Shown: piece after piece, positions 12,857-19,593 of the stretch | Numbering within the stretch: the first letter of the stretch is position 1 | How the letters are laid out: each line of letters begins with the position of its first letter | The notes under the pieces: generated by a model | What the model was told of the DNA's origin: nothing | The model's input: only the letters and a program-made list of their open reading frames with translations | Database searches by the model: none | NCBI RefSeq assembly: GCF_013823965.1 | Contig: NZ_PNNA01000040.1 | Location: forward strand, 1-39,129 | From: Flavobacterium sp. | Lineage (GTDB): Bacteria > Bacteroidota > Bacteroidia > Flavobacteriales > Flavobacteriaceae | Direction: 5' to 3' | Length of the DNA: 39,129 nucleotides | Position numbers and translations under genes: made by a program

Positions 12857-14371
12857 TTAAGTAATTGTTAACAAATCGTCTTCGATTTGAAAACTATTTA
12901 AAAAAGTTACTGTTTTCTGAATGTCATAATGTAAAATTCGATCCTCTTTTACCAAAGAAACTTCCTCACGATAAGCTTTTAAAAACATTTCTATAAAATC
13001 TCCAGATTCCAGAGGTCTTCTGTATTCAATGGCTTGCGAAGCATTCATTAATTCTATGGCTAAAATTCGCTCTAGGTTTTCCATTACTTTCAAGGCCTTC
13101 GTGGCGCCATTGGCTCCCATACTCACGTGATCTTCCTGCCCGTTGCTCGAGACAATACTGTCCACGCTCGAAGGAGTTGCCAATTGTTTGTTTTGGCTGG
13201 CAATGCTCGCGGCCGTGTATTGCGGAATCATCAAACCTGAATTCAAGCCGGGATTATCGACCAAAAATGCGGGAAGATTTCGCAAACCTGATATCAATTG
13301 AAAAGTTCTTCTTTCGGAAATGCTGCCTAATTCCGCCAAGGCAATGGCCATAAAATCCAAGGCTAAAGCCAATGGCTGTCCATGAAAATTTCCACCTGAA
13401 ATGATCTGGTCACTTTCGATAAAGATATTGGGATTATCAGTCACCGAATTAATTTCGGTCTTGAACACTTTTCCTACGTAATCAATGGCATCTTTCGAAG
13501 CACCGTGAACCTGTGGAATGCATCTGAAAGAATACGGATCCTGAACGTGTTTTTTTTCTTGACTGATGATTTCGCTTCCTTCCAGAAAACCTTTAACCCT
13601 ATTTGCCGTCACGATTTGTCCTTTGTGTGGACGAATAAAATGAATCAACTCGTGAAAAGGTTCTATCCTTCCGTCGAAAGCTTCCAAAGAAATGGTCGCA
13701 ATTAAATCCGCTAAATACGAAAACTTGTTGGCTTTCATCAAAACATGTGCGCCATAAGCACTCATAAATTGGGTTCCGTTAAGTAAAGCCAAGCCTTCCT
13801 TGGATTGCAAAACTATTGGTTCCCAATTAAATTGCTTCAAAATTACACTCGAATGCACCTTCTGTCCTTCAAAATTCACTTCACCCTCGCCCAACAAAGG
13901 CAACGATAAATGGGCCAACGGAGCCAAATCGCCCGAAGCGCCAAGCGAACCTTGGGTATATATTACGGGCAAAATATCATTGTTGTAAAAATCGACCAAG
14001 CGTTCGACCGTTTGCAACTGGATTCCGGAATGACCATAACTCAAGGATTGAATCTTTAGCAGCAACATCAATTTCACAATTTCCGTCGGTACTTCGTCAC
14101 CCGTTCCGCAAGAATGTGACTTGACCAAATTTTCTTGAAGTTTCGAAAGATTTTCTTTGGAAATTTTCACATTGCAAAGCGCACCAAAACCGGTATTGAT
14201 ACCATAAATAGGTTTCGATTTTGAAGCCATTTTCTTGTCCAGATAATCCCTGCATTTTTGAATACTGACTTTCACTTCATCAGATAAAGCCAGTGATTTA
14301 TGATGTGAAACGATTTCTTGTAAAGTTTCCAGGGTAAGCACTTCGGTGCTTATATAATGTGTGTTATCCAT
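12857..14371 (-). CDS. hutH: Histidine ammonia-lyase
   Basis: First enzyme of histidine breakdown, forming urocanate and ammonia, in the cytoplasm. The 504 residues carry the self-cyclising triad A145-S146-G147 (GSLGASGDLAPLAHLS) that makes the MIO cofactor, the catalytic Tyr in YGINTGFG (Y56), and the S-H pair in KSHSCGTG (H86). In this superfamily Ser-His at that selectivity site is typical of histidine lyases, whereas tyrosine and phenylalanine lyases carry other pairs. Also seen: GGNFHGQPLALALDFMAIALAELG and the C-terminal NGQEDHVSMGANGA. Usual length for the family (~500-510). No other hut genes are nearby, so the pathway genes are probably elsewhere. Transcribed away from the thr operon. 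Confidence 0.93.
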   Translation of the reverse strand: MDNTHYISTEVLTLETLQEIVSHHKSLALSDEVKVSIQKCRDYLDKKMASKSKPIYGINTGFGALCNVKISKENLSKLQENLVKSHSCGTGDEVPTEIVKLMLLLKIQSLSYGHSGIQLQTVERLVDFYNNDILPVIYTQGSLGASGDLAPLAHLSLPLLGEGEVNFEGQKVHSSVILKQFNWEPIVLQSKEGLALLNGTQFMSAYGAHVLMKANKFSYLADLIATISLEAFDGRIEPFHELIHFIRPHKGQIVTANRVKGFLEGSEIISQEKKHVQDPYSFRCIPQVHGASKDAIDYVGKVFKTEINSVTDNPNIFIESDQIISGGNFHGQPLALALDFMAIALAELGSISERRTFQLISGLRNLPAFLVDNPGLNSGLMIPQYTAASIASQNKQLATPSSVDSIVSSNGQEDHVSMGANGATKALKVMENLERILAIELMNASQAIEYRRPLESGDFIEMFLKAYREEVSLVKEDRILHYDIQKTVTFLNSFQIEDDLLTIT

Positions 14372-14380
14372 TTAGTTTTA

Positions 14381-14388
14381 TACTTTTG
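14381..14388 (+). promoter_or_regulatory. Possible upstream -7 element TACTTTTG
   Basis: Exact TAnnTTTG match just beyond the hutH start, pointing towards the threonine operon. No good -33 partner. If used, it would give a longer leader than the element at 14527. Confidence 0.3.
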
Positions 14389-14526
14389 AGAGACCAAAAT
14401 TCAATAAATCAATATTAAAAAACAAGATTTAACCCTTAAAAAAATTAATATTCTTTTTTTAGACTAGTGTTTTTTAAAATATTCGCAAAAACAGAATGAA
14501 AGGTTTTATTGTTTTATAAAAAAATG

Positions 14527-14534
14527 TACTTTTG
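14527..14534 (+). promoter_or_regulatory. -7 element TACTTTTG for threonine operon leader
   Basis: Exact TAnnTTTG match; TTG at 14509-14511 lies 15 bases upstream, shorter than the usual ~19. Transcription would begin near 14540, about 37 bases before the leader ATG at 14577 and about 207 before thrA. Confidence 0.5.
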
Positions 14535-14576
14535 AAAAATATAATGGTAAACAACAGTAAAACATATCACTCTTCG

Positions 14577-14645
14577 ATGGTAACCCAAATCTGGGCTGCT
14601 TGTTTTGTTACATCTACCACCACTACTACAACTACTACCCTTTAG
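14577..14645 (+). CDS. thrL: Threonine-rich leader peptide (attenuator) of the thr operon
   Basis: A 22-codon open frame, too short for routine calling, lying 102 bases before thrA. It reads MVTQIWAACFVTS, then eight consecutive threonines (codons 14-21, a mixture of ACC, ACT and ACA), Leu and a TAG stop at 14643-14645; ten of 22 residues are Thr. A Thr run directly before thrABC is the hallmark of ribosome-stalling attenuation, as in the Escherichia coli thr leader. The mixed codons argue against a simple DNA microsatellite. An in-frame ATG at 14544 would give 33 residues, but it lies only about four bases past the start site predicted from the promoter element at 14527, so 14577 is preferred. 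There is no obvious Shine-Dalgarno sequence, as is usual here. The name is by analogy of role, not by homology. Confidence 0.8.
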   Translation: MVTQIWAACFVTSTTTTTTTTL

Positions 14646-14690
14646 GGGTATACATTTTACATATAATCCAGTTTTCGTGCTTTTTTCTAA
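14636..14690 (+). promoter_or_regulatory. Candidate attenuator segment
   Basis: TACCC (14636-14640) can pair with GGGTA (14646-14650) across the leader stop codon, so a ribosome stalled in the Thr run would cover its left arm. A T-run follows at 14681-14686. I do not see a strong stem ending at that T-run, so the classical terminator/antiterminator pair is not demonstrated by eye; the mechanism may be longer-range pairing or Rho-dependent. Confidence 0.4.
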
Positions 14691-14747
14691 ATGAAGAGAG
14701 TTCATAGGTATATAAAAACCATTTGCATTTAAAATAAAAACAACACA

Positions 14748-17195
14748 ATGAAAGTATTAAAATTTGGCGGAACTTCGGTAGCCAATGCGCAAAATATAAA
14801 ACTCGTTTTAGATATAGTTCTCAACAAAGCCAAACAAGACAAACTGGTTGTAGTCGTTTCCGCTTTTACCAAAGTTACGGATTTATTGGTTCTTGCCTCG
14901 CAAAAAGCAGCTTCTAATGACGAAAGTTTTAAGGAAGTTGTGGCCGAAATCGAGAAAAAACATTTGGACGCCATCAAGGAATTAATTCCCGTTAGTGAGC
15001 AAAGCGGCTCTTTGAGCCACATCAAAAGAATCATCAATCACCTGGAAACCTTGTTGGACGGTTGTTTCCTTTTGGGCGAATTGTCCCCAAGAACTTCGGA
15101 CACGATTTTGAGTTTTGGCGAATTATTGTCGTCTTACATCATTGCCGAAGCCTTCAAACAACATCATAAAAATAGCGGTTACAAAGACAGTCGCGAATTG
15201 ATTAAAACCAATAATAATTTTGGCAAAGCTGCCGTAAACTTCGAAATAACCAATCCATTAATTGCTGATTATTTTGCTTCGAATGAGGCTCAAATTGTAA
15301 TAATGCCCGGTTTTATTGCCACTTCAATCGACGGAATTGGCACAACTCTAGGTCGGGGTGGTTCTGATTACACCGCTGCAATTTTGGCAGGAGCTTTGAA
15401 TGCAACCGAATTGGAAATTTGGACTGACGTCAACGGAATGTTTACCGCCAATCCAAAAATCGTGAAACAAGCCCAACCTATTGCCACAATTTCCTATCAA
15501 GAAGCCATGGAGTTGTCGCATTTTGGTGCCAAAGTGTTGTATCCGCCAACAATTCAGCCCGTTTTGAAGAAGAATATTCCAATTCTTATCAAAAACACTT
15601 TCGAACCAGAAGCCGAAGGAACTTATATTTCAAACCAAAATACTTCACATGCAAATCCCGTAAAAGGAATTAGCCATATAGACAATATTACGCTAATTAC
15701 GCTGGAAGGTTCCGGAATGATTGGCGTTGCCGGTTCATCCAAAAGACTTTTCGAAGTGTTGTCACACGAAAACATCAACGTGATTTTTATTACCCAAGCT
15801 TCTTCGGAACATTCGATTTGTATTGGAATCCTGAATTCCGATGCCGAGAAAGCCGAAAATGCCATCAACAAAGCCTTTCAACAAGAAATTTCCCAAAACA
15901 AAATCGATCCTTGCATTGTCGAAAAAGACCTTTGCATCATTGCTTTGGTGGGCGAAAACATGAAAAACCACCAAGGTTTGAGTGGTCGAATGTTCAGTAC
16001 TTTGGGTAAAAATAACGTGAATATCCGCGCCATTGCACAAGGCGCTTCCGAAAGAAACATTTCAGTTGTAATCAACGAAAGAGACGTCAAAAAAGCATTG
16101 AACACATTGCACGAAAATTTCTTCGAGGAAAACACCAAACAATTGAACTTGTTCGTGATGGGCGTTGGAAACGTGGGCGAAAAATTCATCGAGCAAATCA
16201 GCCAACAAAAGAAATTCCTCAAGGAAAACCTTAAAATAAATGTGAGAGTTGTGGCTGTGTCCAACTCCAGAAAAATGTATTTTGACGAAGACGGAATCCC
16301 TTTGAAAGAATGGAAATCCTTATTGGAAAATGGAGAACCAGCAGACAAAGATGCTTTTATTGCAAAAGTGAAAACACTCAATTTGCGCAACAGCATTTTC
16401 GTTGACATTACGGCCAACCAATCGGTTTCCGAAACTTATGGACAATACTTGAAACAAAACGTGGCCGTGGTGACTTGCAACAAAATCGCCTGTTCGTCCG
16501 CTTATGACAATTATAAAAAACTGAAAAATCTTTCCCGTCAATTCAATGCGCCTTTCTTGTTCGAAACCAATGTAGGAGCCGGTTTGCCAATTATTGACAC
16601 CTTGAAACACCTGATTGCTTCGGGGGATAAAGTGAACAAAATTCAGGCAGTTTTATCGGGAAGTTTGAACTTTATCTTCAACAATTTCGACGAAAACAAT
16701 TCGTTTCACGATGTGGTGAAAGAAGCAGGAGTTCAAGGATTCACTGAACCAGATCCGAAAATCGACTTGAGCGGTGTGGACGTGGCCAGAAAAATTTTGA
16801 TTCTAATTCGCGAAAGCGGCTACCAATTAGACATTGAAGACATTGCCAACCGATCTTTCTTGCCGGAAGAATGTTTGGCGACCACGAACAACGAAGATTT
16901 TTTCAAATCCTTGATAAAAAATGCGTCTCATTTCGAAGGTTTATTGGCTGAAGCCAAAGCCAAAGATTCCCGTTTGAAATATGTGGCCACTTTCGAAAAC
17001 GGAAAAGCCAGCGTTGGATTGGAATTCATCCCGAAAGAAAGTCCATTCTATAATTTGGAAGGAAAAGACAATATCGTGCAATTTTACACAGACCGATATA
17101 TCGACCAACCTTTATTGATAAAAGGTGCCGGTGCCGGTGCTGCCGTAACGGCTTCGGGAATTTTTGCCGACGTAATCCGTGTTGGAAATATATAA
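14748..17195 (+). CDS. thrA: Bifunctional aspartokinase / homoserine dehydrogenase
   Basis: Catalyses the first and third steps from aspartate to homoserine, feeding threonine (and methionine) synthesis. The 815 residues begin with the aspartokinase motif KFGGTSVANA (residues 4-13) and GRGGSDYTAAIL (~203-214), continue with two ACT-type allosteric segments (VKGISHIDNITLITLEGSG and LCIIALVGENMKNHQGLSGRMF region, ~300-460), and end in homoserine dehydrogenase with a Rossmann motif VMGVGNVGEKF (~469-479), the TCNKIA segment and the substrate-site stretch GFTEPDPKIDLSGVDVARK (~662-680). Length is normal for ThrA/MetL fusions (~810-820). First gene of thrABC, 60-75 bases before thrB, with the Thr-rich leader in front. 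Confidence 0.96.
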   Translation: MKVLKFGGTSVANAQNIKLVLDIVLNKAKQDKLVVVVSAFTKVTDLLVLASQKAASNDESFKEVVAEIEKKHLDAIKELIPVSEQSGSLSHIKRIINHLETLLDGCFLLGELSPRTSDTILSFGELLSSYIIAEAFKQHHKNSGYKDSRELIKTNNNFGKAAVNFEITNPLIADYFASNEAQIVIMPGFIATSIDGIGTTLGRGGSDYTAAILAGALNATELEIWTDVNGMFTANPKIVKQAQPIATISYQEAMELSHFGAKVLYPPTIQPVLKKNIPILIKNTFEPEAEGTYISNQNTSHANPVKGISHIDNITLITLEGSGMIGVAGSSKRLFEVLSHENINVIFITQASSEHSICIGILNSDAEKAENAINKAFQQEISQNKIDPCIVEKDLCIIALVGENMKNHQGLSGRMFSTLGKNNVNIRAIAQGASERNISVVINERDVKKALNTLHENFFEENTKQLNLFVMGVGNVGEKFIEQISQQKKFLKENLKINVRVVAVSNSRKMYFDEDGIPLKEWKSLLENGEPADKDAFIAKVKTLNLRNSIFVDITANQSVSETYGQYLKQNVAVVTCNKIACSSAYDNYKKLKNLSRQFNAPFLFETNVGAGLPIIDTLKHLIASGDKVNKIQAVLSGSLNFIFNNFDENNSFHDVVKEAGVQGFTEPDPKIDLSGVDVARKILILIRESGYQLDIEDIANRSFLPEECLATTNNEDFFKSLIKNASHFEGLLAEAKAKDSRLKYVATFENGKASVGLEFIPKESPFYNLEGKDNIVQFYTDRYIDQPLLIKGAGAGAAVTASGIFADVIRVGNI

Positions 17196-17270: not shown

Positions 17271-18191
17271 ATGAATGAAATAAAAATATTTTGTCCTGCA
17301 ACCATAGCCAATCTTTCCTGTGGATTTGATGTCCTGGGACTTTGTTTAGCTACACAAGGTGACGAAATGATTATTCGAAAATCGGATGTAAAAGGTGTCC
17401 GCATTACTAAAATCGAAGGAGCAAATCTGCCATTGGAAACTGAAAACAACGTTTCTGGTGTGGCTGCTTTGGCGATGTTGGAAGAAGTGGAAACCGAATT
17501 TGGTTTCGAGATTGAAATCTACAAACACATCAAGGCGGGAAGTGGAATCGGAAGCAGTGCTGCCAGTTCGGCCGGAGCTGTTTTTGGAATCAACGAATTG
17601 TTGGGAAGACCGTTTACCCGAAAAGAATTGGTAAAATTTGCAATGCAGGGTGAGAAATTGGCCAGTGGAAATGCCCACGCCGACAACGTTGCTCCTTGCC
17701 TTTTGGGTGGATTTACTTTGGTAAGAAGTTCCAATCCTTTGGACATCATCAAAATTGACAGTCCATCGGAATTGTATGCGACTGTGGTTCATCCTCAAAT
17801 TGAGTTGAAAACTTCCGATGCCCGTTCGGTATTGAAGCAAACCGTTTCCCTGAAAAGCGCCATTACCCAATGGGGCAACGTGGGCGGATTAGTTGCCGGA
17901 TTATACACCAACGATTATGAATTGATTGGACGTTCGCTACACGACGAAATCATCGAACCGGTTCGCAGTATGTTGATTCCCGGTTTTGACTTGATCAAGA
18001 AAGTCGCTTACGAAAACGGAGCCTTGGGTTCAGGAATTTCGGGTTCAGGACCTTCTATTTTTGCATTGAGCAAAGGAAAAGAGACCGCCGACAAAATCGC
18101 CGCCGCCATGAGTGCCGTTTATGACGAAATCAATTTGCCTTATGAAATCCACGTTTCGAAAGTGAATGCGGATGGAGTAAGCATAATATAA
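17271..18191 (+). CDS. thrB: Homoserine kinase
   Basis: GHMP-family kinase of 306 residues that phosphorylates homoserine. The N-terminus MNEIKIFCPATIANLSCGFDVLG is typical of the family; the ATP-binding glycine loop is KAGSGIGSSAASSAGAVFG (about residues 84-102), and the C-terminal motif is ALGSGISGSGPSIFAL. A frame beginning with TTG at 17256 adds five residues, but those codons lie inside the spacer hairpin, so the ATG at 17271 is chosen. Middle gene of thrABC. Confidence 0.95.
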   Translation: MNEIKIFCPATIANLSCGFDVLGLCLATQGDEMIIRKSDVKGVRITKIEGANLPLETENNVSGVAALAMLEEVETEFGFEIEIYKHIKAGSGIGSSAASSAGAVFGINELLGRPFTRKELVKFAMQGEKLASGNAHADNVAPCLLGGFTLVRSSNPLDIIKIDSPSELYATVVHPQIELKTSDARSVLKQTVSLKSAITQWGNVGGLVAGLYTNDYELIGRSLHDEIIEPVRSMLIPGFDLIKKVAYENGALGSGISGSGPSIFALSKGKETADKIAAAMSAVYDEINLPYEIHVSKVNADGVSII

Positions 18192-18303: not shown

Positions 18304-19593
18304 ATGAAATACTACAGTTTAAACCATAATGCCCCAAAAGTTTCTTTTCAAGAAGCCGTAATACAAGGATTGGCCACCGATAAAGGATTATATTTTCCGG
18401 AATCCATCACTCCATTGTCAAAAGAATTTTTCGAAAATATCGAAAATTTGAGCAATGAGGAAATTGCTTTCGAAGCCATTCAACAATTTGTGGGCGACGA
18501 AATTCCAGCCGAAACCCTGAAACAAATCATTGCAGAAACCTTGTGTTTTGAATTTCCGACTCCAAAAGTGGAAGAAGGAATTTATGCCCTCGAATTGTAT
18601 CACGGACCAACGATGGCGTTCAAAGACGTGGGAGCGCGTTTTATGTCGCGTTGTTTGGGTTATTTCAACAAAGACAAAAAAGACAATAAAAATACGGTTC
18701 TCGTGGCTACTTCCGGTGATACTGGAGGTGCTGTTGCCAGTGGTTTCTTGGGCGTTCAAGGCGTGGAAGTCGTGATTTTGTATCCTTCGGAAAAAGTGAG
18801 CGACATCCAGGAAAGACAATTGACCACCTTGGGACAAAACATCAAGGCATTGGAAGTGGACGGTGTTTTTGACGATTGCCAAGACATGGTCAAAAAAGCA
18901 TTTTTGGACGAAAGTTTGAACCACAAAAACCTGACTTCGGCCAACTCGATTAATATTGCTCGTTGGTTGCCGCAAATGTTTTATTTTTTCTTTGCTTACA
19001 AGCAATTGAAATCACAAAACAAAGCTTTGGTATTTTCGTGTCCAAGCGGGAATTTTGGAAATATTTGTGCCGGAATCATGGCCAAAAAATTAGGTTTGCC
19101 TATCGAACATTTCGTGGCTTCGACCAATGTGAACGATACCGTTCCAAGATTTTTGGAAAAAGGAAATTACGATCCAAAACCTTCCAAAGCGACGATTTCG
19201 AACGCGATGGATGTTGGAAATCCGAGTAACTTTATTCGTATTCAGGAAATGTACAACAACGATTTGGCAGAATTCAAAAAAGATTTCTCTTCGTTTTCTT
19301 ATACCGATGCCGAAACTTTGGAAGCGATGCAATCCATTTATAAAACCGATGGTTACGTTGCAGAACCGCATGGAGCAGTGGGCTATTTGGGCTTGAAAAA
19401 AGAATTGAAAAACCATCCAAATGCGATTGGAATTTTCTTGGAAACCGCTCATCCCATCAAATTCTTGGACGTGGTAGAACCGGCTTTGAATATCCAATTG
19501 CCTATTCCAACCCAAATTGAAAGCGTGTTGAACAAAGAAAAAGTAAGCACAAAAATCAAGACTTACGAGGAATTAAAAGCGTTTTTGGCGTAA
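18304..19593 (+). CDS. thrC: Threonine synthase
   Basis: PLP enzyme converting O-phosphohomoserine to threonine. The 429 residues show the cofactor lysine in HGPTMAFKDVGARF (K107), the phosphate-binding loop ATSGDTGGAVASGF (~138-151), NSINIARWLPQMFYFF, and the C-terminal EPHGAVGYLGL. The length and the AFKD motif correspond to the ~430-residue class. It is the last gene of thrABC; a canonical intrinsic terminator begins 28 bases after the stop. Confidence 0.96.
   Translation: MKYYSLNHNAPKVSFQEAVIQGLATDKGLYFPESITPLSKEFFENIENLSNEEIAFEAIQQFVGDEIPAETLKQIIAETLCFEFPTPKVEEGIYALELYHGPTMAFKDVGARFMSRCLGYFNKDKKDNKNTVLVATSGDTGGAVASGFLGVQGVEVVILYPSEKVSDIQERQLTTLGQNIKALEVDGVFDDCQDMVKKAFLDESLNHKNLTSANSINIARWLPQMFYFFFAYKQLKSQNKALVFSCPSGNFGNICAGIMAKKLGLPIEHFVASTNVNDTVPRFLEKGNYDPKPSKATISNAMDVGNPSNFIRIQEMYNNDLAEFKKDFSSFSYTDAETLEAMQSIYKTDGYVAEPHGAVGYLGLKKELKNHPNAIGIFLETAHPIKFLDVVEPALNIQLPIPTQIESVLNKEKVSTKIKTYEELKAFLA

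Follow-up and report, generated by a model that had tools for sequence, protein, structure and literature searches.

How might a threonine operon be controlled by a leader peptide when no recognisable terminator lies between the two? In the textbook account, amino-acid attenuation selects between hairpins, one of which is an intrinsic terminator. The present locus lies in a 39,129-nt stretch of Flavobacterium sp. DNA (hereafter the window), from a genome of 3.07 Mb in 108 contigs, and it combines the sensing part of such a system with a downstream region of another kind. The context is the one named in the original prediction, which had been made from the letters of the window: a complete thrABC on the forward strand, with thrA at 14748..17195 (bifunctional aspartate kinase/homoserine dehydrogenase I; NF006959, 1063.7 bits for a cut-off of 726), thrB at 17271..18191 (homoserine kinase; TIGR00191, 234.5 bits, cut-off 168.25) and thrC at 18304..19593 (threonine synthase; TIGR00260, 302.9 bits, cut-off 167.1), all three above their NCBIfam cut-offs. 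The leader sits between thrA and a divergent histidine ammonia-lyase gene (12857-14371, minus strand). Elsewhere in the same genome (L002, C2:91008-93407) another full-length ORF resembles aspartokinase/homoserine dehydrogenase; it is 36% identical to ThrA, and no cognate leader peptide is visible upstream of it.

The frame first proposed, 22 codons at 14577-14645 (MVTQIWAACFVTSTTTTTTTTL and a stop), is present with its ten Thr codons and its TAG at 14643-14645, and the run of eight consecutive Thr codons can be read at 14616-14639 (+ strand). It is the start that has to be moved: an in-frame ATG at 14544 gives an ORF of 33 codons plus TAG (MVNNSKTYHSSMVTQIWAACFVTSTTTTTTTTL, 14544..14645, + strand), with eleven Thr, and it is the better start because most relatives share the N-terminal part, the added residues MVNNSKTYHSS matching theirs. 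This ATG is found 9 nt past a predicted -7 promoter box, TACTTTTG (14527..14534, + strand), which is the TAnnTTTG element already noticed upstream of the frame. From the stop (14645) to thrA (14748) the distance is 102 nt, as claimed, and the small stem that had been seen over the stop codon corresponds to a hairpin, H2 (14636..14650, + strand), which covers the last Thr, Leu and stop codons.

Conservation was assessed in what we call the Flavobacterium group, i.e. the window plus the best 80 of 207 confirmed related loci, 73 of the 80 being titled Flavobacterium. The thrA of the window is nearest to Flavobacterium; over its first 200 amino acids, identity ranges from 76 to 94% across the 80 loci. 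Two MAG contigs titled ‘Klebsiella pneumoniae’ (L004) and ‘Lentimicrobium’ (L010), whose thrA is 94 and 90% identical to that of the window over these 200 residues, carry the same leader, and their organism titles look wrong. The alignment upstream of thrA, suggested at the outset as a check, came out in favour of the leader: the box, the in-frame ORF with its Thr run and H2 are kept in 80/80 of these best 80 of 207 loci. Since the ATG lies 9–11 nt downstream of the box in 76 of the 81 sequences (the box itself being in 81/81), the 5′ end of the leader mRNA is predicted to fall a few bases before the ATG. A strict screen finds Thr runs of at least four in 72/80 relatives and runs of three in the remaining eight; the longest run varies from 3 to 10 across the 81 sequences, and all four Thr codons are used among the leaders. 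The peptides are otherwise variable, with 74 distinct ones among 81. In a codon-blind alignment of 47 non-redundant sequences, gap runs are multiples of three in 102/102 cases inside the ORF and in 10/212 outside, and by this measure of the aligned sequences the conservation of the frame exceeds chance and the ORF is translated-looking. Differences by codon position (13793, 16360 and 18562) are hardly informative, and the ATG-to-H2 length, always a multiple of three, was not used, as the argument would be circular, the ATG having been picked in that frame.

Of 120 genomes from the genus, 82 are matched by a covariance model of the leader, 95 positions long, with one match each; the 30 best of these 82 matches are all upstream of thrA, 98–190 nt separating H2 from the ATG. 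Among 20 examined of the 38 genomes with no match, 17 were without a thrA match at E 1e-80 and three had one; as to the genomes having thrA, L270 displays a diverged Thr leader, and in L268 no Thr leader was seen. At the level of the family, thrA is present in 248/299 Flavobacteriaceae genomes, from which we took 90 thrA upstream regions (30 returned as loci and 60 picked from the list, about 80 genera by hand count, with our own genome and a second one from its genus among them). The box-plus-H2 pattern is found in 75/90 (raw count). A looser look at the 15 misses revealed an H2-like hairpin in eight, six of which also have a Thr/Ile-rich ORF; the seven others (L102, L122, L132, L153, L157, L159 and L172) have no H2 at all. 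Given that the frame, the Thr richness and the position upstream of thrA are kept across the family, these sequence comparisons speak strongly for a Thr-codon leader peptide serving thrABC. The expectation that it senses mainly threonine suits the Flavobacterium group, where the final 12 codons contain a mean of 7.5 Thr and 0.8 Ile (n=81), but it suits the other genera less, with means of 4.5 Thr and 2.1 Ile (n=73). In E. coli, thrL also senses isoleucine and forms alternative hairpins that include an intrinsic terminator.

Three hairpins appear in the centroid fold of the leader RNA of the window, although the leader as a whole folds no better than shuffles (z -0.29). H1 (14580..14599, + strand) lies within the ORF and is followed by a U-rich stretch, TTGTTTTGTT (14600..14609, + strand), delimited in the terminator-detector scans; in sequence terms, this pair looks like a pause site or a weak terminator. 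The five-pair core of H1 is 95.7% paired in the 47 sequences, two of the five pairs being changed on both sides. H2, in which the end of the Thr run pairs with bases past the stop, is 98.6% paired (by cells) in the same 47 sequences, four of its six pairs being invariant and one changed on both sides. It persists where the stop codon shifts, so the shape of the RNA is kept while the end of the peptide varies (TTP-TAG 56, TTL-TAG 12, PLG-TAA 8, TTL-TAA 2, FGV-TAA 2, LYI-TAA 1). H2 is followed by a linker, TACATTTTACATATAATCC (14651..14669, + strand), which the alignments show to be strongly conserved in the Flavobacterium group, and then by H3 (14677..14703, + strand), with a U-rich 5′ arm and an A/G-rich 3′ arm. 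The T-run noted at 14681-14686 is there; it is the 5′ arm of H3 and not the tract of a terminator. In 15 genomes of other genera, the counterpart of H3 is 86.7% paired, 4/8 pairs being changed on both sides. Paired changes are seen in H1 and H3, H2 being mostly invariant. Covariation scores are above all 500 shuffles in both alignments, a comparison in which kinship alone can exceed shuffles without structure, and the count of doubly changed pairs is matched by 63/500 shuffles for the 47-sequence alignment and by 8/500 for that of the other genera. Local folds compared with shuffles give a mean z of -1.37 and -1.21 in the two sets for the H3 region, and of -1.41 in the Flavobacterium group and -0.57 in other genera for H1. 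RNAalifold returns H2 only for the pooled Flavobacterium group (region from H2 on), H2 only and no H1 for 27 other genomes, and H2 together with H3 for 15 others. H1 is thus weakly supported, by these models, outside the Flavobacterium group.

A textbook attenuator would also need mutually exclusive pairings. No clear signal of these emerged among 21 segment pairs compared with permuted partners, a method that is blind to invariant segments such as H2. One pairing signal, in the middle of the run in other genera (z -4.3), is confounded by segments that overlap by 9 nt. Two candidates that were good by eye, the GGGG arm of H2 with the conserved UCC of the linker (z +0.7 and -2.2) and ACGGACAUA, found in the ORF of some genera, with a downstream GUCCGU (z -2.4 and -0.6), rose little above permuted partners and may or may not be real; the same test established no pairing partner for the linker, and none of the pairings detected accounts for the exact part played by H2 and H3.

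The most striking feature is the lack of a recognisable intrinsic terminator after H2. We used a detector of intrinsic terminators that asks for a hairpin of at least 5 pairs and of -6 kcal/mol or lower, followed by at least 6 T in eight. Within the 110 nt after H2, it finds none in 81/81 sequences of the Flavobacterium group (shuffles 3/243) and none in 73/74 of the other genera (shuffles 0/222), the sole pass being L158, a weak one at -6.5. On this basis an intrinsic terminator downstream of H2 was rejected for the 155 sequences scanned, and the remark that no obvious terminator stem follows the leader extends to nearly the whole family. When the scan was prolonged by 200 nt into thrA, the count was still 0/81. 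Regions of 260 nt that include H2 and the ORF give passes in 14/90 and 15/81. Among those in the 90, four include H2 (L125, L130, L145 and L156, four genomes of other genera in which H2 is followed by T-rich DNA) and one is the pass of L158 after H2; the other passes lie upstream of H2, within the ORF (H1) or on the promoter side. Inside the ORF, H1 passes as terminator-like in 16/154 sequences, the window included, versus 2/616 shuffles. A weak intrinsic terminator, made by H1 or H2, may therefore be part of the thr leader.

The same detector performs as expected on positive controls. In our own genome it finds terminators after the leaders of hisG, pheA and ilvD, at -15.6, -10.8 and -13.7, respectively. 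These three cognate leaders (L202, L203 and L204) are MLSIQLHHHHLQYCSQAMC, His-rich, before hisG, MSSNRFYFSNSFYFFFRK, Phe/Tyr-rich, before pheA, and MQKKRQMKLFAIIPSIINVNVVITCAGGML, Ile/Val-rich, before ilvD, each being followed by a canonical terminator. In the family, a control set of 30 hisG loci among 55 genomes with a match gave 28 regions that could be scored, our own genome included; all 28 have a terminator, at -14.1 kcal/mol or lower, and 27 of them have a His-run leader. Twelve genomes of this set besides our own are also in the thr set (G001, G011, G019, G024, G029, G030, G032, G043, G050, G056, G071 and G075), and none of them has a terminator after H2. Like the thr leader, the his, phe and ilv leaders of our genome and the his leaders of the family are peptides with cognate codons placed before their operon, but they end in canonical intrinsic terminators where the thr leader has H1, H2 and H3 and none. 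The difference is seen again beyond the family. In a class-wide sample of 28 thrA upstream regions, including one same-genus and one same-family genome, seven pass the detector versus 2/84 shuffles, and four of these (L189, L192, L194 and L197) show strong terminators, from -15.7 to -21.2, behind Thr/Ile leaders. These Bacteroidia leaders are like ours in placing Thr/Ile codons before thrA; unlike the Flavobacteriaceae leader, they have a strong hairpin and a T-tract between leader and thrA, and they would suit a study of terminator loss or gain.

Comparison with known systems leads to the same point. The proteobacterial thrL (Rfam Thr_leader) is also a short Thr-rich ORF directly before thrABC, but it has an intrinsic terminator, whereas none was found after H2 in the Flavobacterium leader. 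The Rfam Thr_leader model gives no match at its gathering score in the window and none up to E 10 in 14380-14900; more generally, the leader matches nothing in Rfam 15, Pfam or NCBIfam, only seven weak unrelated families being reported by Rfam up to E 10. As far as its sequence goes, our leader has what defines classical his and thr attenuators at the sensing end, i.e. a short ORF with a cognate codon run directly upstream of the cognate operon, but not the intrinsic terminator between ORF and first gene (0/81 and 1/74, versus 28/28 in the control). Another precedent is tnaC of E. coli, one of several leader ORFs that govern Rho-dependent termination, which senses free tryptophan through the nascent peptide. 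The likeness is that the position of a ribosome on a leader ORF would decide on termination without any intrinsic terminator; the difference is that tnaC reads free tryptophan, whereas the run of codons in the thr leader would read charged tRNA-Thr, with Rho as the presumed factor. The genome does encode Rho, as a 595-aa open frame whose RNA-binding domain scores 115.6 bits. In the family, L158 apart, no intrinsic terminator was found past H2, but H1 inside the ORF does pass the detector in the 16 sequences mentioned above.

At the level of sequence, the comparisons establish the ORF, H1 in the Flavobacterium group, H2, H3 and the absence of a recognisable intrinsic terminator. How these elements would work together is a matter of graded likelihood. 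The thr leader is probably threonine-sensing, yet it is not a textbook attenuator: of the proposal of an attenuator for thrABC, the Thr leader peptide stands, and the textbook type, which calls for a terminator and a clear exclusive pairing, is not supported. That the leader senses charged tRNA-Thr by stalling, and in this way controls readthrough into thrABC with no intrinsic terminator found after it, seems to us about evenly balanced between true and false. As there is no terminator to switch after the leader, we infer that the position of the ribosome decides on factor-dependent termination before thrA. RNA polymerase would pause at H1, within the ORF, giving the first ribosome, which starts near the predicted 5′ end, time to catch up with it. 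When threonine is scarce, this ribosome would dwell on the Thr run, masking it together with the 5′ arm of H2, and the polymerase would continue into thrA. When threonine is plentiful, the ribosome would reach the stop codon within H2 and leave, H2 would close, and a factor, most probably Rho, would end transcription between H2 and thrA, where the RNA is untranslated. That thrABC expression would rise on threonine shortage is what the pathway leads one to expect. Extended to the family, the proposal becomes a terminatorless switch in which a ribosome slowed on Thr codons (Thr and Ile codons in other genera) prevents H2 from closing and averts termination by a factor, probably Rho; we hold this wider version more tentatively, somewhat below even chances. 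A second promoter before thrA was weighed by eye only.

The same elements can be read in other ways. One possibility is that termination is intrinsic after all, but weak: the terminator would be H2, or else H1 together with the U-rich stretch behind it, and a close-following or stalled ribosome would hold it open. Its best argument is the detector itself: H1 with the U-rich tract passes in 9/81 and 7/73 sequences, compared with 0/324 and 2/292 shuffles, the H1 of the window being among them at -7.5 kcal/mol, the 14 nt after H1 contain 44% T compared with 29% in the window, and hairpins that include H2 pass in the four genomes of other genera named above. But 138 of 154 sequences do not pass inside the ORF, H2 passes in 0/81 of the Flavobacterium group, and H1 precedes the Thr run, so that a polymerase having transcribed the run is already past H1. 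We regard this reading as unlikely. Control after transcription, with a stalled ribosome altering how stable the thrABC mRNA is or how it is processed, and with H2 and H3 stabilising it or guiding cleavage, is a slightly better candidate, though still an improbable one. It would accommodate both the keeping of H2 and H3 without a terminator and the lack of any clear competing fold in the segment-pair survey; against it, the Thr, His and Phe leader peptides that are known act on transcription, and the his, phe and ilv leaders of our own genome apparently do the same, having terminators.

The idea of a regulation at translation, by masking of the thrA start, was rejected as unlikely in view of the variable spacer: the distance from H2 to thrA is 98–108 nt in 54 of 81 sequences and 157–263 nt in 26, for a full range of 98 to 263 nt. 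Among the long-spacer sequences (L018, L021, L030, L063, L070 and others), several have related inserted DNA between H3 and thrA, which resembles a dispersed repeat. It could also be imagined that no threonine is sensed and that the Thr run is the by-product of a constraint on base composition or on RNA, such as the need for a G-free, unstructured spacer before H2. The G-free run that ends at H2 has indeed a median length of 24 nt, compared with 3 at random positions of the window, and the leader uses the codons ACG and ACC less (2.2 and 5.6%) than thrA does (8.3 and 17.4%). Nevertheless, the amino acid of the run suits the operon, the gaps respect the reading frame, all four Thr codons are in use, other genera combine Thr with Ile, which are the two end products, and hisG, pheA and ilvD of our genome are likewise preceded by leaders rich in His, Phe/Tyr and Ile/Val, respectively. 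We consider this explanation very improbable.

A study of F. psychrophilum published in 2021 reported strong clues that amino-acid biosynthesis operons are preceded by attenuators of the leader-peptide type, and its structured 5′ elements of pheA and hisG, in the same genus as our locus, resemble the thr leader in this respect (PMC9723704). Leader-peptide attenuation in Flavobacterium is thus already known as such; in the main text of that article, the word threonine does not occur and a thr leader is not named. Small ORFs reminiscent of leader peptides have also been mentioned in Bacteroides (PMC7366714). In the open-licence literature, judged by titles and the start of abstracts, no thr leader of Bacteroidota was recognised as the subject of a paper. 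Some of the older comparative work on attenuation, by Vitreschak (2004) and Lopatovskaya (2010), reportedly touches Bacteroidetes. As a probable sensor, the thr leader adds a member to a known kind; what is new is that no terminator was recognised after it.

What makes the case of wider interest is that, throughout a family, a leader keeps its sensing part and conserved hairpins yet shows no intrinsic terminator, a feature that these bacteria do have in their his leaders. The thr and his leaders offer a clean comparison, within one genome, of what ends transcription when there is no terminator. Screens based on premature intrinsic terminators would overlook a terminatorless class of leaders; PMC2965389 says of its own protocol that it would miss Rho-dependent cases. 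If the proposal is true, the Flavobacteriaceae would possess a class of amino-acid attenuators that dispenses with the intrinsic terminator on which their own his leaders, and the thr leaders of other Bacteroidia, still rely.
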